DNA of 64,000 bases, from positions 744,001 through 808,000 of the forward strand of contig JAEPLN010000001.1 in assembly GCA_017644425.1 (NCBI GenBank). Direction: 5' to 3'. A model generated the notes under the pieces. That model saw only the letters and a list, made by a program, of their open reading frames with translations. It did not search any database and was not told where the DNA came from. The stretch is from Prochlorococcus marinus CUG1433 (GTDB lineage: Bacteria; Cyanobacteriota; Cyanobacteriia; PCC-6307; Cyanobiaceae). Positions 32,551 to 45,490 of the stretch are shown piece after piece. The position numbers and the translations under genes were made by a program. Positions within the stretch are counted from its first letter, which is position 1. Every line of letters begins with the position of its first letter.

Positions 32551-33333
32551 TTAATCTATACCAGAATTTATTAAATCTAATTTTCTTGCTTGGACAAAAT
32601 CTTGCTTAGCAATTTCGACTTGGGAACCAATTGGTAGTTCAAGACAATATCCAGCTCCATATACGGTTTTAATATAAATAGGTTTACGAGGATCAGGTTC
32701 TAGTTTTGTACGTAGGTGTCTAATATGAACTCTTATAGTTTCAATATCATCGTCAGGCTCATATCCCCATACCTCTTTAAGAATGAGTGCAGGTGACACG
32801 GTTTGGCCATGTCTTTGTAGTAGGCAATGAAGTAATTCAAATTCAAGATGCGTTAATCTAACAGGAGAATCAAACCATATAGCTTCAAATCTTTCTGGTA
32901 CAAGAGTTAAAGGTCCATAGTTTAAGATTTCCTGCTGGTTACTTGAGTTTAATTGTGCTCTGCTAGTTCTCCTTAATAGTGCTTTTATTCGAACATGTAA
33001 TTCTTCTAAGTCAAATGGTTTTGTGATGTAGTCATCTGCTCCAGAATTGAATCCAGTAACTTTATCTTTAAGCCCACCCAATGCCGTTATCATCAAAATT
33101 GGGATGTTTGATGTTCTTTCATCTCTTCTAAGTCTCTGACATAAAGTTAATCCATCCACATTAGGCAACATTAAGTCTAAGAGTATTAAATCGGGTGAAT
33201 ATTGGAGAGCTAAGGCTTGACCTTTGATTCCATCTTCAGCTTTTTGTACATCAAAACCTGAGTGTTCTAAATGTTTAGCTACCAGATCGCGCATATCACG
33301 ATCATCTTCAATTAAAAGGATGGAAATTTTCAT
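32551..33333 (-). CDS. rpaA: OmpR-family response regulator RpaA
   Basis: Output regulator of the cyanobacterial circadian system, phosphorylated by SasA. The receiver has Asp53 in [13 protein letters not shown] and the Lys in YITKPFDL; the DNA-binding domain includes [36 protein letters not shown]. The extended C-terminus and the 260-residue length match RpaA rather than RpaB. Both regulators occur in this window about 6 kb apart. The start is ATG at 33333. A long AT-rich leader region lies upstream. Confidence 0.93.
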
Positions 33334-33735
33334 ATTTATAAACTATTAAATTAAAATTAAAATTTTAGTAATACGATTCTCTCAAGAATTTCGAAAGAGT
33401 GCTGATTTAATGTAAACATTTTTATCAACAAGATTTATAAAAAAGTTAGTAATAGCAAGCTTTTTGAGACAAATTACTAATTTATAGAAATTGTAAATTT
33501 TATAATTTCTTTTGATTTTATTTATTATTTCTTCATAATTACGATAAATTCTTGTTTTAGATACTAGAGGTCTTGCAAAAATATCAACATTATATTTATT
33601 AAGAATAAGGGATACAAATAGAGTTGAATTTAAATATTGGGTTTGTAGAAATTTTAATCTGTTTTATTATTTCGAATTAATTTTGAATGTTTAAGCCAGA
33701 ATATTTGTCTATATTAAAAAAAATCATGGGTATTT
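33334..33735. other. intergenic region with a startless minus-strand open frame
   Basis: This stretch lacks a conventional gene. On the minus strand a frame without stops runs over 33382-33663 (93 codons, ending TGA) and reads like protein (for example DIFARPLVSKTRIYRNY and EEIINKIKRNYKIYNFYK), but it contains no ATG, GTG or TTG and is preceded directly by a TAA. It may be a decayed 3' gene fragment or chance. The rest presumably carries the rpaA promoter and the promoter of the gene at 33736. No RNA gene was recognised. Confidence 0.4.
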
Positions 33736-34095
33736 ATGAAAAAAAAGGCATTTATCTATTCTGATTTATCAAAAAAACAGCTAGATAATCTTAAAGAATT
33801 ATATATTCATAAGAAAGTTGAATCGATGAGTCATAAAGAACTTAAAAAATATGTACAAGAAATTATTTCACATAACATAATGGACACTATAGGCAAAGAA
33901 GAAGAAATGGAAGCATGGAGAGAAATGTCTGATTTTTTTGGGGAAGAATTCGAAATATTGATCTCAGAAATCAAAGCAAAATATAATGATGATAAGAACT
34001 TAATTAACACTGAAATAGATCCCCAGAAACTGAGGAAAGAATTACTTGAAAAAAATAATTTAGATCAAGATAAAAAGGATATGTGGGACGATTAA
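33736..34095 (+). CDS. charged hypothetical protein (119 aa)
   Basis: A soluble, helical, very charged protein (KKAFIYSDLSKKQLDNLKELY, then AWREMSDFFGEEFEILISE) without signal peptide or membrane span. It resembles the small Lys/Glu-rich hypothetical proteins that recur in Prochlorococcus accessory regions, but I cannot name a family or function. It lies just outside the putative left end of the island at 34652 and has no close co-directional partner. Confidence 0.6.
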   Translation: MKKKAFIYSDLSKKQLDNLKELYIHKKVESMSHKELKKYVQEIISHNIMDTIGKEEEMEAWREMSDFFGEEFEILISEIKAKYNDDKNLINTEIDPQKLRKELLEKNNLDQDKKDMWDD

Positions 34096-34756
34096 AGTCT
34101 TCAACAGAACGCATAAATTTGTAAAAATTATAATTAAATATATATATTGGAAAATATAAGAAAAACCTAATTTTTTTCTGAAATATTTTGTGAAAAAGAT
34201 TCAATTTTTTGTTCTAATTTCTATACTTAAAACATATCAGTTTTTTATTATTTAAATCAATTAAAATAATAAAAATTGAAATATTTAAAATGTTCTAAAA
34301 ACTGTTCTAAAAAACTATTTATATCTGTGTCATGCATTTTTTATTGATTTGAGGATATTTTTAATTAAGGTTTCCATCAAAATCTACCCACAAAATAAAA
34401 AATACACTTTGAAGTTTTTAGTGAGTTTTAAATTTTTTAAAAAACTTTTTGAGCAGTTTAATAACAAGTTTCTTATGAACTTTGCTAAAGGGGTTTTGGC
34501 TAAAATTTTTTTGCTTTTAATAAAATCCCGAATATGATCTCAAACATCTTTTGCAAAAATGCAAAAATACCAAACATTATTTTTCCAAAATCCTTTTTTT
34601 TCAAAAAAAGACACCTTGGTGAGTCTTGCAATATAGATGATACAAAAATGCAACTACCCGGGCGGGATTTGGGTTAATATTTCGTGATAGTTCCTAACTG
34701 AAGTAGATATGAGAAAATGCTGAATTTTAAAAATCTTCCCACCATATTTCCACCAC
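34096..34756. other. extremely AT-rich intergenic region, left edge of island
   Basis: No credible gene. A 62-codon frame at 34349-34537 is Lys/Phe/Ile-rich, has no ribosome-binding site and looks like chance in AT-rich DNA. Visible structure: two close copies of TGTTCTAAAAA near 34291 and 34303, a hairpin around 34608-34628 (AGACACC...GGTGAGTCT) flanked by A- and T-rich runs, and the tRNA-like repeat at 34652-34671. Confidence 0.4.
34652..34671 (-). repeat. displaced copy of the tRNA-Asn 3' end (att-like)
   Basis: Twenty bases matching 44412-44430 plus one with 18 of 20 identities (shared core CCCGGGCGGGATT). It is in the same orientation as the 3' end of tRNA-Asn(GTT) at 44414-44485. A run this GC-rich is exceptional in the surrounding AT-rich DNA. 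A same-orientation copy of a tRNA 3' end on the far side of a gene block is what tRNA-targeted integration leaves behind. Confidence 0.6.
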
Positions 34757-34952
34757 ATGAACTCACAAAATCATCCTTTCTTGACCATCAGAGAGGTTTT
34801 CGAACTTTTTGGAATTTCAATTTCTACTATTAATCGTTTAATAAAAAGAGGAGAATTTCCTCCAAAAGTAAAAATATCTCCTATGAAGAATGGTTGTTAC
34901 GAAAGAGCAACTTAAAGAATAGATAGATCAAAAAACATTGCCTCACTAGACT
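34757..34952 (+). pseudogene. AlpA/excisionase-like HTH protein, disrupted (copy 1)
   Basis: The ATG at 34757 opens a 52-codon frame with a MerR/AlpA-type HTH: FLTIREVFELFGISISTINR then LIKRGEFPPKVKISP. After NGCY the frame is lost: shifting by one base continues as KEQLKE, a stop (TAG where Trp would be expected) and IDQK. Removing one base at about 34901 and restoring TGG would give the usual family ending with an EWI motif. Small proteins of this type are excisionases or regulators of integrative elements. The copy at 43305 is related. Confidence 0.6.
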
Positions 34953-35031
34953 ATGAAAGTTAAAAATGTATGCTTCGTTAACATTTAAGATATCTAAAAT
35001 GGTATATTTTTAGTTATTAAAAAATTTATCT

Positions 35032-36342
35032 ATGCTAAAGAAAATTTTTGATAATAAAATCTTTTTACTTTCCTCTGCTTTAATGCTTGGAAGTACTCCA
35101 GTTTTTGCTGAATCAACTTGGGATGGCAAGTATAACTCTACCTTCCCTTTCCAAATGTCTAAAGCATCTGTTTGTCCAAAATTTTTACCAATTGATATAG
35201 AAGTTAAGATTGAAAAAGGACAAATATCAGGTTTTATGTTTAATAATGGTGGTGGTAACAAAGATTCTTTTTGTAAGTTATATCACAATGGTAGTATTAC
35301 TGGATCAATTGACGATGCTGGAAATTTTATAAATGTGAAAGTAAAGCAGAAAGACAGTCATTCTAGGAAATATTCCTCTTACAAAATCACGGGTAATATT
35401 AAAAACAATTTAAATTTAATCAGTAAAAGTCCCAAGTATCATCCCACAACAGCATTTTTAATTACTAAATATGCCGATTTAGACAGTGAATCTACAAATG
35501 CTCAAGCGAATAATAATAGTAAAACAGTTATTAATAACAACGATAACTCTGTTACTCTAAAAGTTAATGTCAATAATCAATCACAGGCCCAAAAAACTCT
35601 AGATGAGGTTCAATCCTCTCTTAATATGTATCAAGCAATATCAAAGGTAGTAAAGAAACAATCCCCTGATATTAGAAACAGAATTCTTGGCGCAGTTAAC
35701 AAAGAAATTAAAAAATTAACCCAAGAAAAAGAAGCACTTGAAACGCAGTTTTCTAATCAATTTTCAACTCCCATTAGACCATCTAACCAAAAATTAAATG
35801 TTTCCTCTTTTAAAGCATCTGAAACATTTCCCAAAATACCTTTCTATGTCCCTGGAACAAATGAAATAGGTGAGATGCTAACTATACCAAGGGTAACTGA
35901 TGAAGGGTTTTTAGTTTATAGACTTGATTTCTTAGACCCCTCATCAACTTATGAAAAAGTTAGAGATAGTATAAATATTCCTCACGAAAATATTGATGGA
36001 GTTATTAAAGCACTCGTAAATATTGATAAATGGACAAAAACTGCTCAGGAAAATAATTTAACTAGAAGAGTATCAAAGACTGCTATATGTATACCAGCAG
36101 GAAGATGTCAAAACAAGAAAAAAGGAATTATGTCTACAGAAATAGTTTTTCAGGTCTACGAGGATGGAAGTACATCAGGAAGAATTCAACGAAATAAAGG
36201 TACATACTCGGTTGGATACAACTTGTCTGTTGAATCATCAGTATTACTATCTGCTTATTTAACTTACATGCGAGACACAGGATCAAAAGAGTTTAATATT
36301 GGTAACATGTCTGACGATGAAGTGAAGTCTCTATTTAATTGA
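35032..36342 (+). CDS. exported protein of unknown function (436 aa)
   Basis: Starts with a clear signal peptide (MLKKIFDNKIFLLSSALMLG, cleavage likely after VFA). The N-terminal domain (about 27-145) is beta-rich with Cys residues that could pair; an Asn-rich linker (about 160-190) precedes a coiled-coil-like helix (about 190-245) and a C-terminal domain (about 260-430) with a second Cys pair (AICIPAGRC). I recognise no family. Its stop overlaps a TTG start of the glycosyltransferase gene, so the two may be cotranscribed. It is likely periplasmic or outer-membrane associated. Confidence 0.75.
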   Translation: MLKKIFDNKIFLLSSALMLGSTPVFAESTWDGKYNSTFPFQMSKASVCPKFLPIDIEVKIEKGQISGFMFNNGGGNKDSFCKLYHNGSITGSIDDAGNFINVKVKQKDSHSRKYSSYKITGNIKNNLNLISKSPKYHPTTAFLITKYADLDSESTNAQANNNSKTVINNNDNSVTLKVNVNNQSQAQKTLDEVQSSLNMYQAISKVVKKQSPDIRNRILGAVNKEIKKLTQEKEALETQFSNQFSTPIRPSNQKLNVSSFKASETFPKIPFYVPGTNEIGEMLTIPRVTDEGFLVYRLDFLDPSSTYEKVRDSINIPHENIDGVIKALVNIDKWTKTAQENNLTRRVSKTAICIPAGRCQNKKKGIMSTEIVFQVYEDGSTSGRIQRNKGTYSVGYNLSVESSVLLSAYLTYMRDTGSKEFNIGNMSDDEVKSLFN

Positions 36343-37331
36343 GATCAAATTTTGTGAAAAATAACTTAAGTCTCTCAATAGTTACAACAATTTTTCAAAG
36401 TGAAAATACAATAAAATCATTTATAAATAAAATTGCTGACTGTGCTAAGAAAAATTTTGGAGATAATTACGAAATAATAATAGTAAATGATGGTTCAACT
36501 GATAAGAGCTTAAATATTGCTATTGGGGAGTCCAAACTATCTAATAAAATTAAAATTGTTGATCTATCTAGAAATTTTGGCCATCACAAAGCTATCATGG
36601 CAGGGCTTTCCTATTCTAATGGTGATTTAGTATTCCTTATAGATAGTGATTTGGAGGAAGATCCAGAATTATTATTTCTTTTTCTGAAAACAATAGAGGA
36701 TTATAATGTTGATGTTATTTATGGTGTACAGAAACAGAGAAAAGGTAAATTATTTGAGAGAATTTCAGGAGAAATTTTTTATAGATTATTTAACGCAATA
36801 TCTAGAATAAACTTCCCTAAAAATATTTTAACTGCAAGGCTCATGACTAGGAAATATGTTGACTCCTTATTACTATTCAAAGAATCTGAACTTTATTTAT
36901 TAGGAATATTGCATATTACTGGATTCGAACAAATGCCTATAAAAGTTTCAAAAAAATTTAAGATATCTAGCACATATACAATTAGAAATAAATTATCATT
37001 AGTAATTAACAATATAACTTCATTTACTTATAGACCCCTAAAATTAATTTTCTATTTTGGAATAACTGTAACCTCAATTTCTTTATTTTTTGGCATAGTT
37101 CAAATTGTTAGATACTTTTTATTAGGAAATACAATAGTTGGTTGGACTTCTTTAATAGTGTCTATCTGGCTGTTTGGAGGAATCATTATTTCAATTCTAG
37201 GAATATTAGGTATTTATCTATCAAAAGTATTTATGGAAGTAAAGAATCGACCTCATCATATAGTTAAAAACACATATGTTAATGGTTCAGTGTCTGATCT
37301 TGTATGTAGAGTAAACATGAATAAAAACTAA
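36339..37331 (+). CDS. GT2 glycosyltransferase (DPM1/GtrB-like)
   Basis: Membrane-bound family-2 glycosyltransferase of 330 residues. The catalytic domain has IIIVNDGSTDKS for nucleotide binding and LIDSDLEEDPELL with the metal-binding DxD-like Asp; two C-terminal transmembrane helices (about 230-255 and 265-295) follow, as in polyprenyl-phosphate sugar synthases such as GtrB and ArnC. It probably loads a sugar on a lipid carrier for surface glycan modification. The TTG at 36339 overlaps the previous stop; a GTG at 36354 is an alternative start. Confidence 0.85.
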   Translation: MRSNFVKNNLSLSIVTTIFQSENTIKSFINKIADCAKKNFGDNYEIIIVNDGSTDKSLNIAIGESKLSNKIKIVDLSRNFGHHKAIMAGLSYSNGDLVFLIDSDLEEDPELLFLFLKTIEDYNVDVIYGVQKQRKGKLFERISGEIFYRLFNAISRINFPKNILTARLMTRKYVDSLLLFKESELYLLGILHITGFEQMPIKVSKKFKISSTYTIRNKLSLVINNITSFTYRPLKLIFYFGITVTSISLFFGIVQIVRYFLLGNTIVGWTSLIVSIWLFGGIIISILGILGIYLSKVFMEVKNRPHHIVKNTYVNGSVSDLVCRVNMNKN

Positions 37332-37338
37332 ATGAAAT

Positions 37339-38103
37339 ATGCAGGTTGATCCTTCGAATTATATTCTTAATGTAAATTGTTTAGAAGAACTAGATTTCCA
37401 TCACGTAAGAGAAAGATTACAATCGAATTCTCTAGTAATAATAAGGGGATTAGTTTCAAAGCATGAAATAGAAAAATCAATTTTTAAAATTAAAAAGTCT
37501 TTTAGAAAAGAAAATGATAATCCTACTATTGGCGAAAGTCCAAAAGATATTCAGAAGAATTTTCAAAAACTAATGGTTGGAGGTAATTCACACAGTGGAT
37601 TATATTTAACAAGATTATTTAGAACATTTTATAATCCAATGTGGGAAGAAGATATTTTTGAAATGCATAATATTTATAAACTTATGATAAAAATCAGAAA
37701 TTTATGTTCTAACTACCCAGAGGAATTTGCTATTTCTAAGATTGAAGACAATGGTTTATGGAGTGCAACTAGAATTCATCAATACCCTACGGGCGGAGGT
37801 TATTTTACTAAACATAAAGATACGGTACTTACTACGGTTGCAAAAGAAAATAATATAAGTTTTTATCAAGTAATTCTTAACATGACTAAATTAGGAAGAG
37901 ATTTTGAGAGTGGAGGGGCTTTTGTTGAAATAGAAGGTAAGAAAATTATGTTTGAGAGAGAGTTTGATATTGGAGATATAATTATCTATGATGAAAGGAC
38001 CTTTCATGGAGTTGATGAAATTGATATTAAAAAAAATCTAAATCTAGATAAAATTTGTGGAAGAATTACTGCTTTCGTATCTCTTTATAAAGATATTAAA
38101 TAA
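37339..38103 (+). CDS. Fe(II)/2-oxoglutarate-dependent oxygenase
   Basis: A 254-residue double-stranded beta-helix oxygenase. The facial triad is visible as His159 and Asp161 in FTKHKDT and His223 in ERTFHGVDE, with Arg242 in GRITAF placed to bind 2-oxoglutarate. SGGAFVEIEG and DIGDIIIYDE are typical core strands. The substrate is unknown; the position seven bases after a lipid-linked glycosyltransferase suggests a surface sugar or lipid, by context only. It is not of the same subfamily as the phytanoyl-type oxygenase at 41519. Confidence 0.8.
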   Translation: MQVDPSNYILNVNCLEELDFHHVRERLQSNSLVIIRGLVSKHEIEKSIFKIKKSFRKENDNPTIGESPKDIQKNFQKLMVGGNSHSGLYLTRLFRTFYNPMWEEDIFEMHNIYKLMIKIRNLCSNYPEEFAISKIEDNGLWSATRIHQYPTGGGYFTKHKDTVLTTVAKENNISFYQVILNMTKLGRDFESGGAFVEIEGKKIMFEREFDIGDIIIYDERTFHGVDEIDIKKNLNLDKICGRITAFVSLYKDIK

Positions 38104-38603
38104 TAAAATATTCAAAAACACTTTTCTGCGTAATTTATGCAATGGTGACTTAAAATTTAAATAAAATAAAGGATCTATAGATTGTATAGCGTGAATAGGT
38201 TTTATTAGATCAGCAAAAAATTATAGGTCTCTAATTTCTTATTTTCTAAGAAAATCTTAAACTTAAATTATTTTTGTTTGCTTAGAAGTAACATTTTTGG
38301 CAGGTTTTATTATGCTTTTAATCCTTTAAAATTTATCTTCAGGAAATCAAAAATTTATAGATTACTTTTTTAAATTTTTTTCCTTTGAGCTTTTTATTTT
38401 TCATTATCAATCTAATATTAATTAGAAAAATCCTTCAAAAAATTAATAAGAAAAATATGAATTATCTGTATTTAAAATTTACTCATGAATTCAATAACAA
38501 TTTATCTTTCCTGAATTTAATAAAATTGGTGAGAAACTTTTAGTAAATATTTTTCAAAAAATGGATTTTATAAAAAATCAAATATTCGAAAACTTTTAAT
38601 TTC
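38104..38603. other. AT-rich gap with possible coding remnant
   Basis: Five hundred bases without a usable gene between two converging island genes. Near its right end a plus-strand frame ending at the TAA at 38597-38599 reads FPEFNKIGEKLLVNIFQKMD, which looks like the tail of a lost gene, but it is only about 33 codons after a stop. I see no RNA gene and no convincing terminator. Confidence 0.3.
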
Positions 38604-39563
38604 TTATATGGTTTTTTTAAAAATCTGATCTTTTAGGTAAAAAGGGAAAAAAGAAGAATTTTCATTTGATGTTGGAAAATTATTAATTTCTTTAAGATAA
38701 TTTTTTTGATCCACAACTAATTTTAAACCACCATTGTATAAAACCTCACCCCCCAATTTTTTTTTAAAATTGTCAATACCGTCATTCTTCCTAACTCCCC
38801 CTCCTAAAAAGAATGTTTTAAAGCCTAATGATTTCAAAAAAATTATTTCATTCCACAACATCAAATAACCATAAGAATAACCATTATTTTTAGAAGCAGC
38901 AAAAACAAAATCGGCATTATCATTTTTTTGGTTAATACCAATTAAATGCATTAATTGAATTTCTTTATTAACTTTTAAACAAAATAAAAAATTATTATCA
39001 AGTTTAAGGATTTCTTTCATAAAAAATGAGTTTATAAATTGACTATTATTAGCGCCAACAGAAGACATAAAATTACTATAGAGTTCAAAAAAATAATTTT
39101 CTTCTTCTTTTGTTGCAATATTAAATTCATAAAAAGATTTACTTAATTCGGTATTTTTTCTATTTTTTTTACTAATATTTTTTTTAAGTTGATCCTCAGT
39201 ATTTTTTAGATCAATATAGTAACTATTTAATCTCTCAGAAAAAATATCTTTTAACTTATTAGGAAACGCTTCTTTTAAATTAAATTTACTTATTAATGGC
39301 AAGTATAGAGTTGTGATATTTTTTAATGATATTTCTTCAATTATTTTTTCGAGCTTATCAATTGAAGAACTACTAATAATATTGAAAGAGGAATATGAGT
39401 TTACAGGTAAATAATTTGTAGTTTCATTAAATCGATATTCTAGAAACTTTAAATTAAATATATTTTCTTTGCTTTGATTCAAAGAGACCAATTCTTTATT
39501 TTTAAATTTCGAATAAATTTTTAATATTTCATCTGTATTATACCAATTATCCAAGTTATTCAT
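38604..39563 (-). CDS. FemAB/GNAT-like acyltransferase
   Basis: A 319-residue protein with the C-terminal GNAT-like fold of FemAB/FemX-type enzymes: a charged stretch (KKNISKKNRKNTELS, about 132-146), then the acceptor-binding core (ADFVFAASKNNGYSYGYLMLWNEI) and the diagnostic GGGVRKNDGIDNFKKKLGG near residue 255. Such proteins transfer amino acids or acyl groups onto sugars or peptides. It is two bases downstream of the methyltransferase gene, so they form a unit that probably decorates a surface sugar; the donor is unknown. Confidence 0.75.
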   Translation of the reverse strand: MNNLDNWYNTDEILKIYSKFKNKELVSLNQSKENIFNLKFLEYRFNETTNYLPVNSYSSFNIISSSSIDKLEKIIEEISLKNITTLYLPLISKFNLKEAFPNKLKDIFSERLNSYYIDLKNTEDQLKKNISKKNRKNTELSKSFYEFNIATKEEENYFFELYSNFMSSVGANNSQFINSFFMKEILKLDNNFLFCLKVNKEIQLMHLIGINQKNDNADFVFAASKNNGYSYGYLMLWNEIIFLKSLGFKTFFLGGGVRKNDGIDNFKKKLGGEVLYNGGLKLVVDQKNYLKEINNFPTSNENSSFFPFYLKDQIFKKTI

Positions 39564-39565
39564 TT

Positions 39566-40261
39566 TTATCTAGAAGTACAAATAACTGTCCAATAAAACT
39601 CTTCAAGGCCCCACCAGTTATTCTCACAAAAGCCAATTTTGAACCCTTCAAATTTTTGACTTAAGAGATTGATAATTTCAGTATCAGTTTCAAAAAATTT
39701 TATTTTCAATCCATTTCTAATTCTCAATGGGTCATCTTTTACAACTGCATAATTATCTTTAAGAATTTCGGCATTTTTCAAAAGATAACTTTTATTTGTT
39801 GGAATAGAAAAAATAAATCGACCACCCTTTTTTATAATTCTACTAATCTCATTTAAATTTGAGCTAAAGGAATCATTATTGTTTAGATAATAAAATGAAT
39901 GACATGCAACTATACAATCAAAGAATTCTTTTTGAAAGTTACTATTACTATTATTGCCAACTTGCAAAATAGCTTTGTAATTATTGAATTCTAAATTTTT
40001 AGAACAAAATTCCAAAATTTCTTTATTAATTTCTAGTCCATATACTCTATATCCTAAATCACTAAGAAAAGGTATATTTCTTCCATCACCACAACCCAAG
40101 TCCAAAACTTTTTTACCTTTATAAAAAGTTTTATCATTTGGTTTTAAATTAGGATAGGTTCCTAAAAAAGACCTTACAACGAATTCAGTTGGATATAGTT
40201 TTGAAAGTTTTTTCCCTTTATAATATTTTGTATATTGAAGATAAATATCTTTATTAATCAT
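39566..40261 (-). CDS. class I SAM-dependent methyltransferase
   Basis: A 231-residue Rossmann-fold methyltransferase. Motif I is KVLDLGCGDGRNIPFL (near residue 49); the later motifs VYGLEINKEILEFC, DCIVACHSFYYL and IIKKGGRFIFSIPT are all in order. It resembles the methyltransferase-11/25 group that acts on small molecules and nucleotide sugars. It is followed after two bases by the FemAB-like gene on the same strand; the pair recalls sugar N-acyl/methyl tailoring sets. Confidence 0.85.
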   Translation of the reverse strand: MINKDIYLQYTKYYKGKKLSKLYPTEFVVRSFLGTYPNLKPNDKTFYKGKKVLDLGCGDGRNIPFLSDLGYRVYGLEINKEILEFCSKNLEFNNYKAILQVGNNSNSNFQKEFFDCIVACHSFYYLNNNDSFSSNLNEISRIIKKGGRFIFSIPTNKSYLLKNAEILKDNYAVVKDDPLRIRNGLKIKFFETDTEIINLLSQKFEGFKIGFCENNWWGLEEFYWTVICTSR

Positions 40262-40437
40262 TAGAAAGATTATTTGTATAATTTTAAATTAAATGGTTTT
40301 AGTTTTAGGTCAAGATTAATACTTTAGGAGTAATTTTTATAGTCACTGAAAAAATTTTATTCATTACACAATAACAATTAATCTCGTTTTTGTGATTAGA
40401 AAAATTTAAGCTGGAGGAAAATATATTTTCACAAAAA
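40262..40437. other. short AT-rich gap
   Basis: Between the WbqC-like gene and the methyltransferase gene, both on the minus strand. No gene, RNA or clear terminator is seen; it probably holds the promoter of the methyltransferase/FemAB unit. Confidence 0.3.
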
Positions 40438-41127
40438 TCAAATATATTGCATATGCTCATAACATTTTCTTCCACAATTGAAAATAAGATCTAATATTGA
40501 TAGATTATCTACAAAACCACCCCATAGCTGTCTATAACTCCCATATTTAGAATAGTTAATATATGATAATTTTATTTTATTTTCTTTAAATATATTTTGG
40601 TCAATATAATTTTTTGCTGATGGGCCGGTAACATATTCGCAGGCATTTAAATCTTTGCATATATTAACCAATCTTTCTGTTTTCCCATTTTTTAAATTAA
40701 ATTCAGAAGAATCTCTGATTTTAGTAGTAATTTCAAGATAATTACAAATCAATTCAATTAATCTTCTATTCAATTCCGAAAGATAAATATAGTTTTCTTC
40801 AAAGTATATTTTCTCAAGTTCTGATGATAAATCTTCAAAAAAAGGTGCTTTTGAATAACTTGATTTTAAACTTTTCCAGTGACTATTTTTCCAAGATTGA
40901 CCATCTATTTCTGCTTCTTTAATTTTTTGAAAATATTTTCCTTTAACTTTTACTGGAATACTAAGCCAAAGTGGACCATCTTTTGTTTTTATCTTGTTTC
41001 TATTTCTCCAATCACGTTTTGTATATTGCATATCATCAAAAATTATAAATTCGTCTACAGAAGCTATTAAATCAAAATAACCTCTCCAAGGAATATAGTT
41101 TGACTGAGATATAGCTATTTTTTTCAC
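40438..41127 (-). CDS. WbqC-like family protein
   Basis: A 229-residue protein with the WbqC family signature at the N-terminus: KKIAISQSNYIPWRGYFDLI, then DEFIIFDDMQYTKRDWRNRN and LWLSIPVK. WbqC proteins occur in O-antigen and surface polysaccharide clusters and are thought to act in sugar tailoring, possibly with aminoacyl or acyl transfer; the exact reaction is not established to my knowledge. Its presence with methyl-, acyl- and glycosyltransferases is the best argument that the island works on cell-surface glycans. Confidence 0.85.
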   Translation of the reverse strand: MKKIAISQSNYIPWRGYFDLIASVDEFIIFDDMQYTKRDWRNRNKIKTKDGPLWLSIPVKVKGKYFQKIKEAEIDGQSWKNSHWKSLKSSYSKAPFFEDLSSELEKIYFEENYIYLSELNRRLIELICNYLEITTKIRDSSEFNLKNGKTERLVNICKDLNACEYVTGPSAKNYIDQNIFKENKIKLSYINYSKYGSYRQLWGGFVDNLSILDLIFNCGRKCYEHMQYI

Positions 41128-41260
41128 TAATTTGAAACATATTTTTAGATTATTTTATATTAAAAAATTAATTAATTAACTTTTGAATTGCATAAAAAAA
41201 TTATAGAAATTAATACTCAAAAAATAAAAGATAAAATCAATAAGATATGGGGCGAATAAT

Positions 41261-41282
41261 AAATTAATCAATTGATTAATTT
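41261..41282. repeat. perfect 22-bp palindrome
   Basis: The left half is AAATTAATCAA and the right half is its exact reverse complement with no spacer. It is immediately followed by the ACTAGT repeat cluster. AT-rich palindromes arise by chance, but a 22-bp perfect one next to iterated repeats is notable; it could be a protein-binding or cruciform site. Confidence 0.5.
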
Positions 41283-41352
41283 GGACTAGTAAAAACGTTA
41301 AAAGACTAGTAAATAGACTAATAAAAATGTCCTATACTATTCTTACTAGTCC
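41283..41352. repeat. ACTAGT repeat cluster
   Basis: GACTAGTAAA occurs at 41284 and 41304 and a near copy GACTAATAAA at 41316, all direct. GGACTAGTAA (41283-41292) is also the inverse of TTACTAGTCC (41343-41352). A further TTACTAGTTA lies at 41501. Short iterated direct repeats near an inverted pair resemble arm-type sites bound by integrase or excisionase; this function is inference. Confidence 0.45.
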
Positions 41353-41389
41353 TTCCCTGATTGCATGGAGATCTAGTGACATACATAAA

Positions 41390-41410
41390 AAAGACCCAAT
41401 TAGGGTCTTT
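41390..41410 (-). terminator. Rho-independent-type terminator hairpin
   Basis: AAAGACCC and GGGTCTTT form a perfect 8-bp stem around a five-base loop. On the minus strand the stem ends in a run of T (six T in total), fitting termination of transcripts coming from the oxygenase gene at 41519-42262, about 110 bases upstream on that strand. Confidence 0.6.
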
Positions 41411-41518
41411 GTTCGACTATTTAAGACATATAAAAATCCTCGGGCGATTTAATAATAAGTCCTATAAGCGGTTCGAGTCGGCTTGGCTCAATAGTGATTT
41501 TTACTAGTTATGCCAATT

Positions 41519-42262
41519 TTATTTAATTTCATTTTGATATTTTAAAGTTTTAAATTCCGTATTAATAGGGAAATTTCTTTTTTTATATTCATTACATCCA
41601 AGATCAGAGAACCTTAATTGTACAGAAAATCGTATTTTATCAGAACAGTTATATCCACTAGCATGAACTAACTTTTGGTTAAAAATAATTGCTTGGCCAT
41701 ATTTAACATCGCAGTTCTCAAATTTAAATTTAAATTTTTTTTCAATAATCCCCTTTTTGTTTGGATAAACTTCATTTAGATGACTTTTTGCACATACTAA
41801 AAGAGATCCCTCTTTGAAAGAAGTATCTTGAAGAGGAATCCATATGGTAACAGAGTTTTCGCTGCCACAATTGTATGCATAATCTTGATGTTGAGAGAAC
41901 CTGGATTGTTCTTTTATAGGTAAATCAACCCTCAATACGGGTTGCAAATTATGTATGGGTTCTTTAAATTTGCATATACTTTTAAGTAACTCTTCAAAGT
42001 ATGGATGACCTCCTAATGAAAAAAGAGCTGATGAATTCCACAAATGCTTAACTCCAAGGTATTGGAGAGACTGATTTTTAAGCCTAAAGTTTACAATATC
42101 TCGATCGTCTGAAATTTTACCAAGATTTTTTGATTCACTTAAGCAATTATTTACACTAAAGATTTTTGCCCTTAAGTTTTCTAATAAAGGAATACAGGGA
42201 TTTATTGATACTCTAAAGTAACCTCTTTCATCAAGATCTTTCTTAAGCAATGAATAATCCAT
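41519..42262 (-). CDS. phytanoyl-CoA dioxygenase family oxygenase
   Basis: A 247-residue PhyH-type Fe(II)/2-oxoglutarate oxygenase. His125 and Asp127 in SQHQDYAY and His200 in QKLVHASGYN form the metal triad, and Arg211 in KIRFSVQLRF likely binds 2-oxoglutarate. WIPLQDTSFKEGSLLV is the conserved central strand pair of the family. Substrates of bacterial PhyH proteins range from lipids to sugars and antibiotics. The gene begins one base after the stop of the FkbM gene, so both are probably one transcript and may act in sequence. Confidence 0.83.
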   Translation of the reverse strand: MDYSLLKKDLDERGYFRVSINPCIPLLENLRAKIFSVNNCLSESKNLGKISDDRDIVNFRLKNQSLQYLGVKHLWNSSALFSLGGHPYFEELLKSICKFKEPIHNLQPVLRVDLPIKEQSRFSQHQDYAYNCGSENSVTIWIPLQDTSFKEGSLLVCAKSHLNEVYPNKKGIIEKKFKFKFENCDVKYGQAIIFNQKLVHASGYNCSDKIRFSVQLRFSDLGCNEYKKRNFPINTEFKTLKYQNEIK

Positions 42263-42952
42263 TTAATCCTTTCTCTTTATAAATAAATCTAATGAACATA
42301 TGGAGCCATTATTAAAATCAAAAAAGAAGTGACCAATTTGCTCTGAATCTCCATGAATAAATGTATAAAGTTCATAATCTAAATTCTCTAAAAAAGTTAA
42401 TATTTTGCTTAAAGATTCATTCTTTTCATAAAATCCTGAAATATTAACCTCAACCTGCAGATACTGCACTTTTTTGTGAAAAAGTGTTTCTTTTGCACCC
42501 TCCAAGACTTCAAAAGAATGACCTTGAGTATCAATTTTCAAGAAATCAATATTTTCAATAGATTCTTCAGATACGATATTATCAATAGTTTTGCACTGAA
42601 CAGTAAATTCTCTCTGCTTCACATAATCCCTTGAAAAATAATAACCTTTTTTATCCAGATCATAGAATGAATTTGCTTCAGAATTGGAATAGCATTTAAA
42701 ATTCCTCTCGTTTTGATTATTTGAAATCGCAAAATTTTGAACTTTGCTATTGCAATCTGAGAATTCTTTTTGTAATTTTTCTGATAATAATGGATCTGGC
42801 TCAAATAAATAAAGTTTTGAATTAGAAAATAAAGATCGAAAATTTTTTGAAGATTGACCTTTGTTTGCACCAATATCAAAAAATAATGGTGATTCAGTAC
42901 ATATAAAATGTCTTAGAAGATCATTCTTACAAGTTATAGATGATATGGACAT
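42263..42952 (-). CDS. FkbM-family methyltransferase
   Basis: A 229-residue SAM-dependent methyltransferase of the FkbM group. Motif I is LFFDIGANKGQSSKNFR near residue 24; NIDFLKIDTQGHSFEVLEGAK near residue 135 is the family's most recognisable block. FkbM proteins O-methylate sugars or polyketides. In picocyanobacterial islands they usually accompany glycan genes. Its stop is directly followed by the PhyH-type oxygenase start. Confidence 0.85.
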   Translation of the reverse strand: MSISSITCKNDLLRHFICTESPLFFDIGANKGQSSKNFRSLFSNSKLYLFEPDPLLSEKLQKEFSDCNSKVQNFAISNNQNERNFKCYSNSEANSFYDLDKKGYYFSRDYVKQREFTVQCKTIDNIVSEESIENIDFLKIDTQGHSFEVLEGAKETLFHKKVQYLQVEVNISGFYEKNESLSKILTFLENLDYELYTFIHGDSEQIGHFFFDFNNGSICSLDLFIKRKD

Positions 42953-43169
42953 TTAATTAATCTGAATAAAAGTATAAAAAGTTTTTTATAAATTCTTGTT
43001 AATTTTATTTTAGTAAGTAGAAAAGTCAAAAATCTCGTAATTTTAAAAATATTATTAATAAAAAATTGATTTATCTGTAAATTTTTAATAAAGATTGAAA
43101 AGCTTTTATAATTTTAGTCAAAATCATTGACATAAGCATTCTTAAGAACCCTGATATACCCGCTCAAAA

Positions 43170-43189
43170 AGAGACTTTTGAAAGTCTCT
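43170..43189. repeat. perfect 9-bp inverted repeat
   Basis: AGAGACTTT and AAAGTCTCT are separated by two bases. No T-tract follows on either strand, so termination is not evident. It lies in the coding-like repeat region near the right end of the island. Confidence 0.5.
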
Positions 43190-43213
43190 GGAAGTGATTG
43201 GAAGTGTTATTAA

Positions 43214-43252
43214 ACTCCCCAGCCAAAAGTCGGAGAGACCTCTCCTGGGAGT
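43214..43252. repeat. nested GC-rich hairpin
   Basis: The outer arms ACTCCC and GGGAGT enclose an inner perfect hairpin GGAGAG/CTCTCC (43232-43245). It is far more GC-rich than its surroundings. It could be a structured RNA or recombination site; nothing known to me matches it. Confidence 0.45.
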
Positions 43253-43304
43253 GCCTGAAAAAACCTGATATAAGAAATCGAAGAAGCAGATATATTTCAT
43301 GACC

Positions 43305-43486
43305 ATGACTAATTTAGAAAATAGATCTTTTTAACATTAAAAGAGGTTTCAAAATTAATTGGACTATCAGTATCAACGATCAATCGCGTGGTCAAAAAAA
43401 GAGACTTAACCTCAAAAGTAAAAATATCGCTAAAAAGAATGATTTTTATAAAAAACGAAATAGAAGAATGGATAAATGCAAGATGA
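43305..43486 (+). pseudogene. AlpA/excisionase-like HTH protein, frameshifted (copy 2)
   Basis: The ATG at 43305 starts MTNLENRSF and then hits a stop; adding one T in the T-run at about 43328 joins it to a frame reading LTLKEVSKLIGLSVSTINR, VVKKRDLTSKVKISLKR and ending EIEEWINAR before TGA at 43484-43486. The product would be about 60 residues, the size of AlpA-type regulators, and is clearly related to the copy at 34757. The single-base loss in a homopolymer suggests decay, or less likely a sequencing error or slippage. Confidence 0.6.
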
Positions 43487-43550
43487 AATAGATATAAAAA
43501 AAGGTATTATTTAAAAAATTATATTTAATAATCATTTCTCCATATTTGCA

Positions 43551-43841
43551 ATGTCCTCATTAAGGTTTTTACTTATTTTTATTTTTTCTTTTTCCTTATC
43601 ATCAAATGCTACTCCAACCATCAGAGAGCATTATTCAGATAATTATTTAAAGTTAGTTGAATTAATCTTTGATAAACATAATGTAGACATAATGAATAGA
43701 GATTTTTATGAAGGTTATAGTATGAAATTTGAAGACAAATGTAATGCTGAAGTTAAATTAAAGACTTACTCATCTTTATTAAATATTTTCAAAGTAAATA
43801 TATGCACTAATCAAAGTGAGATTATTTCAGAAAGAGTATAA
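43551..43841 (+). CDS. small exported hypothetical protein (96 aa)
   Basis: Begins with a signal peptide (MSSLRFLLIFIFSFSLSSNA) followed by about 75 residues with two Cys (DKCNAEV and VNICTN) that could pair in the periplasm. No family recognised. ATG start at 43551 with little ribosome-binding signal. It converges with the hypothetical gene at 43853, 11 bases away. Confidence 0.55.
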   Translation: MSSLRFLLIFIFSFSLSSNATPTIREHYSDNYLKLVELIFDKHNVDIMNRDFYEGYSMKFEDKCNAEVKLKTYSSLLNIFKVNICTNQSEIISERV

Positions 43842-43852
43842 AAAAAATTCTT

Positions 43853-44242
43853 TTAAAAATTTTTAATCTTTTCATTAACAAAATCCCTAATAAATAATCT
43901 TGTCGCCATTTTGACAATTTGATCTTCAATAGGATCAAATCTGATCTTTTCGAAAAATTTATACAATTTTATCATTGTATATTTCTTTGCAATCATAATT
44001 TCAGAATATGAATTTGCAGAAAATATACTTTTTTTATTATTCTTGTTTTTCATTTCTTGAATTTTTAAAAAGTCCAATTCCATTGGGAAAAAATACATAT
44101 ATACGGTACTATCTATCTCCTGAAGAATTCTAAAAATCTCTGGAATCCTGAAAGAATCCTCGACAAAAAAAGATTCATGAAATATATCGCTATCAACTTT
44201 TCCATGATGAATAATTAACTTTATAAATTCTCTTTCATTCAT
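43853..44242 (-). CDS. hypothetical protein (129 aa)
   Basis: No recognised domain. I start it at the ATG at 44242 (MNEREFIKLIIHHGK); a TTG at 44266 would add eight residues. The protein is mixed alpha, with aromatic segments (STVYMYFFPMELDF) and a basic C-terminal half (KKYTMIKLYKFFEKIRFDP). It is the last gene before the tRNA-Asn end of the island. It could be a real accessory gene; composition is like its neighbours. Confidence 0.5.
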   Translation of the reverse strand: MNEREFIKLIIHHGKVDSDIFHESFFVEDSFRIPEIFRILQEIDSTVYMYFFPMELDFLKIQEMKNKNNKKSIFSANSYSEIMIAKKYTMIKLYKFFEKIRFDPIEDQIVKMATRLFIRDFVNEKIKNF

Positions 44243-44366
44243 CAAATAAACAAGTGGCGATAACAATAAAATAATGGTTTTTAAAAGAAAATAGTTTAAT
44301 AATTTACAATCTTATCAAGACAATTTCACGACCATCTACAAGTCAAAATAATAGAAAATCTTAAAA

Positions 44367-44396
44367 AAGACCTCAAGTAAATTAACTTGAAGTCTT
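44367..44396 (-). terminator. terminator of tRNA-Asn
   Basis: AAGAC-C-TCAAGT and ACTTGA-A-GTCTT form a stem with one mismatch around a short AT loop. On the minus strand it is followed by a run of T (complement of AAAAAA at 44363-44368). It lies 18 bases past the tRNA-Asn 3' end, so it most likely ends that transcript. Confidence 0.6.
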
Positions 44397-44413
44397 AAGA
44401 ACCCAAAATTGAA

Positions 44414-44485
<72 letters not shown>

Positions 44486-44496
44486 ATATAAGATGA

Positions 44497-44525
44497 ATTT
44501 AGCTCTTCTAAGTACCTTATGACAA
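44497..44525 (-). promoter_or_regulatory. possible tRNA-Asn promoter
   Basis: On the minus strand TTGTCA (44520-44525) is followed after 17 bases by CTAAAT (44497-44502), a weak -10. A start about 44490 would lie just upstream of the tRNA. The -35 is good and the -10 poor, so this is tentative. Confidence 0.3.
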
Positions 44526-44534
44526 GTAGAAAGT

Positions 44535-45185
44535 TTAATTATATTTAAATTTAGATGGTATTTGCCAATTAGATAAAAAACCATTTTTCAATTCTGCTAC
44601 TGCATCAGCGTAAGTTAATTCTTCATAACGGTGTGTTATCCACAAAACGGTTAAAGGTTTTTCAGTGTCACTTGTCAGATTTTTAATGGTTTTTAAAACT
44701 TTTAATTGGCTAAATTGATCTAACAAAGCAGTAGGCTCATCTAAAAGAATAAAATTTCTGTCACTAATAAGAGCGCACGCAATTGTTAATCGTTGTTTTT
44801 GACCACCACTTAAAGTATGCACAGGCCTTTTTTCAAAACCATTCAATCCAACCTGGTCAAGAACATATTTTATTTTTCTATTAATTTCATAATCATCTAT
44901 ATTTTGATTAATGTTAATTAAAAGTTCGCTCCTGCAATTTGGCATCAATATTTGATGATCAGGATTTTGAAATACCATGCCAATATTTGCGTTACAATTA
45001 ATAATTCCTTTTTTAGGTTCAATTATTCCATTAATTAATTTTAAAAGCGTACTTTTACCACTTCCATTTTCACCAACAATCATCCAGAAACCTGGAGTAT
45101 TTATTGAGAAACTACAGTTATATATTAAATTTTCTTTTTTTGCAGGATATGAAAAAGAGACATCTTTGAAATTAATATGAGGCAT
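44535..45185 (-). CDS. ABC transporter ATP-binding protein
   Basis: A 216-residue ABC ATPase with Walker A GENGSGKST, Q-loop MVFQNPDHQILMP, signature LSGGQKQRL and Walker B FILLDEPTALL. The NPDHQ wording is like EcfA/CbiO energy-coupling ATPases for vitamins or cobalt/nickel, but no permease is adjacent, so the substrate is open. I choose the ATG at 45185 (MPHINFKDVSFSYP) since ABC proteins begin right before this strand; a GTG at 45212 would add nine residues. It follows the UPF0367-like gene on the same strand. Confidence 0.85.
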   Translation of the reverse strand: MPHINFKDVSFSYPAKKENLIYNCSFSINTPGFWMIVGENGSGKSTLLKLINGIIEPKKGIINCNANIGMVFQNPDHQILMPNCRSELLININQNIDDYEINRKIKYVLDQVGLNGFEKRPVHTLSGGQKQRLTIACALISDRNFILLDEPTALLDQFSQLKVLKTIKNLTSDTEKPLTVLWITHRYEELTYADAVAELKNGFLSNWQIPSKFKYN

Positions 45186-45214
45186 TTCATTTTCGAAAGA
45201 ATTTCTTATCACTT

Positions 45215-45490
45215 TTAATCATCTATGTCCAGAGAAAAACCTGGTCTTTTAGCTCCTCCAGCTACCGATGATTTTTCGTATATTTGTATAGAAATAATTT
45301 CTTGAGCTCTAACAGCAATTTTTTTATCCTGCACTTTATCACAAGTTAATTCAATCAAGTTTGAAACTTCTAAATTTTCATTCATAGATTTTTTTATTTC
45401 ATCATAAGTTCTTTGTATATCATCATATTCTTTCTTCTGAATTGAAAGCGGAAATGGTGAATATCTTAGACTTAGTTCAAGCGAATACAT
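45215..45490 (-). CDS. UPF0367-like cyanobacterial protein
   Basis: A 91-residue protein beginning MYSLELSLRYSPFPLSIQKK, then a helical segment and LIELTCDKVQDKKIAVRAQEI, ending AGGAKRPGFSLD. This pattern matches the UPF0367 family, which is conserved in cyanobacteria and of unknown function. The ATG at 45490 is preferred because the conserved sequence begins there; a frame extending further upstream encodes an unlikely Tyr/Phe/Lys-rich leader. Confidence 0.8.
   Translation of the reverse strand: MYSLELSLRYSPFPLSIQKKEYDDIQRTYDEIKKSMNENLEVSNLIELTCDKVQDKKIAVRAQEIISIQIYEKSSVAGGAKRPGFSLDIDD

Follow-up and report, generated by a model that had tools for sequence, protein, structure and literature searches.

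The tRNA-Asn locus of Prochlorococcus marinus CUG1433

The window, a stretch of 64,000 nt from contig JAEPLN010000001.1 of Prochlorococcus marinus CUG1433 (genome G000 in this study), carries a block of accessory genes inserted at the 3' end of a tRNA-Asn(GTT) gene. ARAGORN and Rfam both place this tRNA gene on the minus strand, with its 3' end pointing to the left, as described in an initial reading of the DNA made without database searches (the sequence-only reading). No other RNA was detected up to an E value of 1 in an Rfam scan of positions 33300-45300. The displaced copy of the 3' end described in the same reading was also recovered: AACTCCCCGGGCGGGATTCG, located at 44412-44431, is found again at 34652-34671 in the same orientation, with 18 identities out of 20 (2 mismatches). 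No match to this repeat occurred in 100 shuffles of the window, and its exact 13-nt heart, CCCGGGCGGGATT, is present at only two sites in the 1.70-Mb genome, namely the tRNA-Asn end and the distal repeat. On the basis of these two results and of the scan of core copies in relatives presented below, a chance repeat was rejected. The locus combines an intact tRNA gene with a displaced 3' fragment in the same orientation, as is typical of tRNA-targeted islands. A search for the core-proximal consensus in the window's own genome gave no match.

The span 34652-44430, initially regarded as one element, comprises at least three tRNA-Asn-targeted units (A, B1, and B2) arrayed head to tail (Table 1). 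The single element is ruled out by the internal core copies and by the existence of unit A on its own. In another species (G030, locus L058), nothing but unit A is inserted, and the usual host flank comes immediately after it. The two copies of unit A are 92.7% identical (63 gap positions), as compared with 84.0% in the ABC gene, 85.6% in the response regulator gene, and 57.1% in the distal intergenic DNA of the same two genomes. Unit B2 appears to be composite, with a left end resembling that of a G082 element and different, AlpA-type arm repeats at the right. The 3' fragment of tRNA-Ala(GGC) found in unit B1, together with its downstream flank, matches genuine tRNA-Ala genes in the three relatives fetched; with two displaced tRNA fragments, the array is thus a mosaic.

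A gene of the AlpA/excisionase type, which the sequence-only reading overlooked, adjoins the distal repeat and begins 105 nt from the start of the distal core. A second one lies in unit A, and these are the only two PF05930 matches in the whole genome. Both reading frames are damaged, near the N-terminus in unit A (as in L058) and at the C-terminus in B2, while intact copies are held by relatives. The array in the window, with both its AlpA genes damaged, is therefore probably immobile, a decayed copy fixed in place. Of the two possibilities originally proposed, a decayed or a trans-mobilized element, the former seems to describe what the window contains, and the latter would apply to the wider family of units presented below.

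That no tyrosine recombinase is visible in the insert held up, and no remnant of one was detected: its ORFs did not match a profile derived from 20 genus recombinases (including that of L045), and tblastn with four recombinases from tRNA-Asn elements gave only chance matches in the window (best E 2.5). Virion, packaging, and replication genes were likewise not found among the island ORFs of at least 96 aa with Pfam, NCBIfam, or PHROGs, the PHROGs matches being to GtrB-like and methyltransferase families. The GtrB-like glycosyltransferase, WbqC, FkbM, PhyH, and methyltransferase genes form a mix which we take to be associated with surface glycans.

Table 1. Features of the tRNA-Asn island and its flanks (positions in the window)
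Feature	Position	Strand	Remarks
DUF7326 protein	33736-34095	+	conserved flank
Distal copy of tRNA-Asn 3' end	34652-34671	+	core 34652-34664
Unit B2	34665-41433		composite: arm repeats differ between its two ends
Right arm repeats (B2)	34735-34755	-	by eye
AlpA/excisionase-like gene (B2)	34757-34915	+	Pfam AlpA/HTH_17; beside distal repeat; C-terminus lost
436-aa ORF (B2)	35032-36342	+	no convincing family
Family 2 glycosyltransferase, GtrB-like (B2)	36339-37331	+	
254-aa ORF (B2)	37339-38103	+	no family match
319-aa ORF (B2)	38604-39563	-	no family match
Methyltransferase (B2)	39566-40261	-	
WbqC-like protein (B2)	40438-41127	-	
Left end of B2	41282-41446	-	86% identical to left end of recombinase-bearing tRNA-Asn element, G082 (L045)
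Arm repeats in left end of B2	41284-41321		
Intrinsic-terminator-like hairpin	41390-41410	-	just after internal core
Internal core copy	41434-41446	-	2 mismatches; followed by terminator-like hairpin
Unit B1	41447-43212		contains FkbM methyltransferase and PhyH dioxygenase
Displaced 3' fragment of tRNA-Ala(GGC) and downstream flank	41467-41518	+	
PhyH dioxygenase (B1)	41519-42262	-	
FkbM methyltransferase (B1)	42263-42952	-	
Internal core copy	43213-43225	-	3 mismatches; closes unit A; same place as lone-unit end in L058
Unit A	43226-44411		same element as lone 1.24-kb unit of G030 (L058)
Right arm repeat (A)	43295-43306	-	by eye
AlpA-like gene (A)	43325-43483	+	reading frame broken near N-terminus
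96-aa ORF (A)	43551-43841	+	cargo; no family
137-aa ORF (A)	43853-44266	-	cargo; no family
Left arm repeats (A)	44315-44335	-	by eye
Attachment core at tRNA-Asn 3' end	44412-44424	-	CGCCCGGGGAGTT
tRNA-Asn(GTT)	44413-44486	-	integration target, intact; ARAGORN (Rfam gives 44414-44485)
ABC ATPase	44535-45212	-	conserved flank

Occupancy of the site in other Prochlorococcus genomes

The corresponding loci of 76 genomes were fetched via their ABC ATPase orthologues within the genus. The order ABC ATPase, tRNA-Asn, insert, DUF7326, response regulator is conserved in relatives. The tRNA-Asn and DUF7326 genes are on one piece in 63 of the 76 loci, and the following counts refer to these (the other 13 lack DUF7326 or the tRNA on the piece). 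The site is empty in 22 of the 63 relatives, with 243-347 nt from tRNA-Asn to DUF7326 (326-347 nt in 19 of them). Six carry a short insertion of about 175-225 bp (514-564 nt between the two genes), and 35 a long one of 1.0-12.6 kb.

With up to 3 mismatches allowed, the window and the inserts of 75 relatives (270 kb) contain the core CGCCCGGGGAGTT 55 times in the orientation of the tRNA and 3 times on the opposite strand; no copy at this threshold is present in the 22 empty loci. A core was recognized in 36 of the 41 occupied loci and not in the other five, based on a list chosen by hand after the initial scan (one 3-mismatch core of L025 was omitted and L053 was added by eye). The distance from the distal core to DUF7326 is 334-361 nt in 22 of these 36 loci, as the spacing of the empty sites predicts, 128-129 nt in three, and at least 767 nt in 11, where older copies of the core are presumably worn. 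Insertion at this one tRNA gene has been repeated and oriented. The window has about 230 bp more at 34096-34651 than the distal core-DUF7326 spacing of most relatives; no core or arm repeat was recognized there, and it is possibly one more worn unit.

The empty sites, the oriented cores, and the predicted distal spacing bear out the proposal that the insert is an island with the geometry of integration at a tRNA end. The accessory character ascribed to the insert and the core character ascribed to its flanks also agree with the data, as the flanks are conserved and the B cargo is nearly absent from the loci of relatives. No protein of this cargo was found at the 76 other loci, apart from a glycosyltransferase at 27% identity in L010. 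Among the matches listed from a DNA search in 121 genomes of the genus, G030 and G011 hold unit A, and G011 also matches part of the WbqC gene at 73%; the others listed are element ends and short stretches. As in the search made with the 970-bp unit mentioned below, the best two or three candidates were taken per genome, which does not establish that the cargo is absent elsewhere.

At L043 and L059, a unit is 97.6% identical between the two hosts, versus 64.9% in the adjoining intergenic DNA. Stretches of the first unit (about 970 bp) of L043, L059, L010, and L032 occur at 80-96% identity elsewhere in most of the genomes searched, which weakens the high identity of this unit as a proof of transfer. 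Small tRNA-Asn units in the inserts of L006 and L025 and in L158 encode proteins of about 33-aa tandem repeats (NKFSIEDIILSSKEAYQKEL...) common to distant hosts.

AlpA units across the genus

An alignment of the AlpA proteins from the recombinase-less units (class I) was scanned over 84,980 species and yielded 40 loci, 34 in Prochlorococcus and six weak ones elsewhere; the named class I loci overlap with the genomes numbered here with G (for example, L134 is contig 6 of G075), so that the two sets are not independent. A core lies upstream of the AlpA gene in 32 of the 34 loci, at a distance of 105-117 nt in 28 of these. A tRNA gene is present in 25 class I loci, and in every case it is tRNA-Asn. 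None of the 26 class I units complete from core to core contains a tyrosine recombinase. At L147, a recombinase-bearing unit is located beyond the next core, the one clear case of a tandem with a class I unit. Subclass Ib consists of ten units of 0.8-1.1 kb (one of 2.0 kb), most of which hold one variable ORF and the AlpA gene. At L136 (3823-10192), a class I-type AlpA gene lacks arm repeats and a core, but lies near a recombinase, a possible link between class I and a distinct AlpA (class II) that accompanies a recombinase in other elements.

The class I AlpA is under purifying selection: among 18 copies chosen as intact, the mean pN is 0.19, the mean pS 0.47, and the median dN/dS 0.30, pN being lower than pS in all 153 pairs. 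The class I ends do not track the phylogeny of the hosts. The distance between right ends with AlpA was not correlated with that between host ABC genes, taken as the single host marker (Mantel r 0.03, p 0.36, 21 loci); 22 of the 34 named loci were entered, 21 of them with a usable ABC gene, and L160, L162, and L165, in which ABC is present, were not entered. The ends average 70% identity between close hosts (ABC >85%) and 69% between distant ones (ABC <75%), and element identity exceeds host identity in 41 of 210 pairs.

By eye, two direct repeats of 10-13 nt lie about 70-95 nt before the core at the right ends, often together with a motif resembling TCAGGCACTATCAGG. A terminator-like hairpin occurs within 80 nt after the core in 111 of 130 cases (tRNA 3' ends included), as against 67 of 555 random positions. 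The smallest units, of about 175-250 nt, are composed of the ends and little else. When the right ends were compared over 45 nt by mean identity (L053 being misaligned in this set), class I and class II gave 0.66, as compared with 0.61 within class I and 0.27 for shuffles: the ends of the main subclass match those of the rarer elements at tRNA-Asn that bear both AlpA and a recombinase. Two of 12 mini-units reach at least 0.8 right-end identity with class II.

Recombinases at tRNA-Asn and at other sites

Integrases had been proposed as something to look for at the tRNA-Asn loci of other strains, and tyrosine recombinases are indeed present in some relatives. The genus profile, run on 966 ORFs, identified complete recombinases in four tRNA-Asn inserts (L045, L073, L008, and L055); L126 is a further recombinase-bearing case, and a fragment of 61 aa lies beside an AlpA in L015. 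PF00589 alone proved insufficient, as it detected one recombinase at the site (G082) among 60 genomes. In L008, L073, L055, and L126, the class II AlpA gene overlaps the start of the recombinase gene. Elements bearing a recombinase were also found beside tRNA-Ser and tRNA-Pro, and the combination of AlpA and recombinase recurs at tRNA-Ser genes with other cores.

The genome of the window itself carries two element-type recombinases, on contigs C3 and C4. The former (L174, 5836-13950) is a protein of 417 aa recognized by the profile, without any Pfam match, and lies beyond an ABC transporter set and a D-2-hydroxyacid dehydrogenase (Pfam), presumably a phosphonate/phosphite set. The latter (L175, 2769-7436; 462 aa) adjoins tRNA-Pro(TGG) along with a McrB-type ATPase and a McrBC-family protein (Pfam). 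A tyrosine recombinase-like protein of 389 aa (L082, 823-1989), with weak NCBIfam matches only, occurs in many genomes of the genus, including that of the window. The recombinase-bearing tRNA-Asn loci L055 (5119-5697), L045 (13486-14064), and L136 (8263-8838) also encode a 192-aa protein of the serine resolvase family (Pfam for L055), and L055 additionally carries a type I restriction set. In L090 (G050), three recombinase matches (429, 406, and 191 aa) are found within 9.1 kb around tRNA-Ser(TGA).

Proposed mechanism and alternatives

The locus in the window appears to be a decayed array belonging to a kind already known, and the interest lies in the units, found genus-wide, that lack a recombinase and keep AlpA. 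We propose, with a probability of about 0.6, that these are non-autonomous integrative units forming tRNA-anchored arrays, the recombinase of which would be supplied in trans. The anatomy implies that insertion recombines the 13-nt core of the element with the 3' end of tRNA-Asn, rebuilding the tRNA and displacing the older core, and that most units bring a terminator-like hairpin behind the rebuilt gene. The Prochlorococcus units keep the attachment ends, and usually the small AlpA/excisionase-type gene, without a tyrosine recombinase. Elements with both AlpA and a recombinase at the same tRNA would integrate and excise them; for the main subclass, the candidate helpers are the elements of G035, G050, G021, and G169, which have the same ends. 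The unit's own AlpA would set the direction of the reaction and, given that its gene starts at the arm repeats, would also regulate its own expression. More tentatively, the whole might resemble an integron, with a tRNA gene as the base of the cassette system: compact units, often one variable gene and an AlpA direction factor of its own, would be added in head-to-tail order by an integrase that is encoded outside the array, on visiting elements with the same site.

Several observations weigh against the proposal of mobilization in trans. This step is inferred, neither an excised circle nor a mobilization having been observed, and the proposal does not account for the 230 bp or so beside the distal repeat. 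The right ends of subclass Ib, which are 0.78 identical to one another, reach only 0.48 with class II, and those of the recombinase-bearing L045 element only 0.38 with class I, so that no helper was identified for Ib. The element-recombinase profile matches 10 of 24 genomes searched at E<=1e-5 (the window's genome included), and nearly complete genomes such as G002 (99%) have no match. Searches of the viral contigs in IMG/VR turned up no relative of either the class I AlpA or the G035 recombinase. The AlpA ends of L148 and L158 are 90% identical and the whole units only 65%; recombination between units may thus be a way in which ends spread. The class I-type AlpA of L136 is separated by 4.3 kb from a recombinase, no convincing core (<=4 mismatches) stands in this interval, and the two may share one unit. 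Lastly, the AlpA tree (36 of 45 matches, five being left out by name and the others by length) does not firmly separate classes I and II, class II grouping with Ib with a support of 0.76. The recombinase could therefore have been lost repeatedly, and since the tree leaves it undecided, AlpA monophyly was dropped as proof of a single recombinase-less lineage.

Repeated loss is the basis of the explanation by plain decay, in which tycheposon-like elements inserted with their own recombinase, each lost it later, and left stacked remnants resembling CIMEs (see below). The damage to both AlpA genes of the window agrees with it, as do the unlike arm repeats of unit B2 with its left end resembling that of a recombinase-bearing element, the recombinase fragment beside the AlpA of L015, and the possible joint unit of L136. 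We nevertheless consider it unlikely, because units of about 1 kb recur on the same plan with no room for a recombinase, which is retained in not one complete class I unit, and because the class I AlpA is kept by selection, with distances independent of the host marker.

The units might instead be moved by the 389-aa protein found in many Prochlorococcus genomes, or by a recombinase that the same genome carries at a different tRNA. Both kinds are available in the window's genome, one of its two element-type recombinases being beside tRNA-Pro, and the lack of a helper for Ib leaves a place for them. Yet elements at other tRNAs use other cores and the class II ends match those of class I, which makes this very improbable. 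It is hardly credible that the cargo was shuffled by homologous recombination between the conserved flanks and not by site-specific integration: such flanks would permit it, and stretches of the 970-bp unit do occur at many places in the genus, but the units are bounded by oriented core copies and identity steps at the core, both in L043/L059 and in unit A.

Much of the flexible genome of Prochlorococcus resides in islands, many of which nevertheless have no visible mobility gene. A family of units that lack a recombinase but retain conserved ends and a selected AlpA gives a concrete, testable means by which streamlined genomes could acquire genes one at a time; the direction factor would then be mobile in its own right, apart from the integrase.

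Comparison with known systems

AlpA usually occurs together with an integrase in one element; here it stands alone. The copies in the window match PF05930, one of the families of AlpA/excisionase proteins (PF05930, TIGR01764), and the class I copy of L124 reaches 28.5 bits with TIGR01764, narrowly missing the cut-off of 28.8. Recombinase-less AlpA units at tRNA-Asn are not named in the titles and abstract openings surveyed, which is weak evidence of novelty as the subscription literature was mostly outside this scope.

Tycheposons are elements of Prochlorococcus reportedly described by Hackl et al. in 2023. The units resemble them in being cargo elements at tRNA genes of the same genus, the tRNA border and the accessory cargo both being found here. 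They differ in lacking a tyrosine recombinase, both in the window array and in all 26 complete class I units (L136 being ambiguous). Second-hand accounts of tycheposons are given in PMC10872708, PMC11389934, and PMC12416821, the first of which puts their size at 4-200 kb; many of the units described here, at about 1 kb, are below this range. In another of these papers, clusters of attC sites lacking an integrase (CALINs) and miniature inverted-repeat transposable elements (MITEs) are presented as hitchers, with a need for a recombinase in trans that the present units would share (PMC11389934). The likeness goes no further than analogy, the attachment site of the present units being a tRNA 3' end accompanied by arm repeats.

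A further comparison is with cis-mobilizable elements (CIMEs), which, according to PMC5704250, keep both att sites without integration genes, stack in tandem at tRNA 3' ends, and are decay products. Unit A, with both cores and arm repeats and without a recombinase, and the tandem stacking of the array are in line with the first two of these features. The units differ from CIMEs, as presented there, in that AlpA, a homologue of a recombination gene, has been kept and conserved by selection (PMC5704250).

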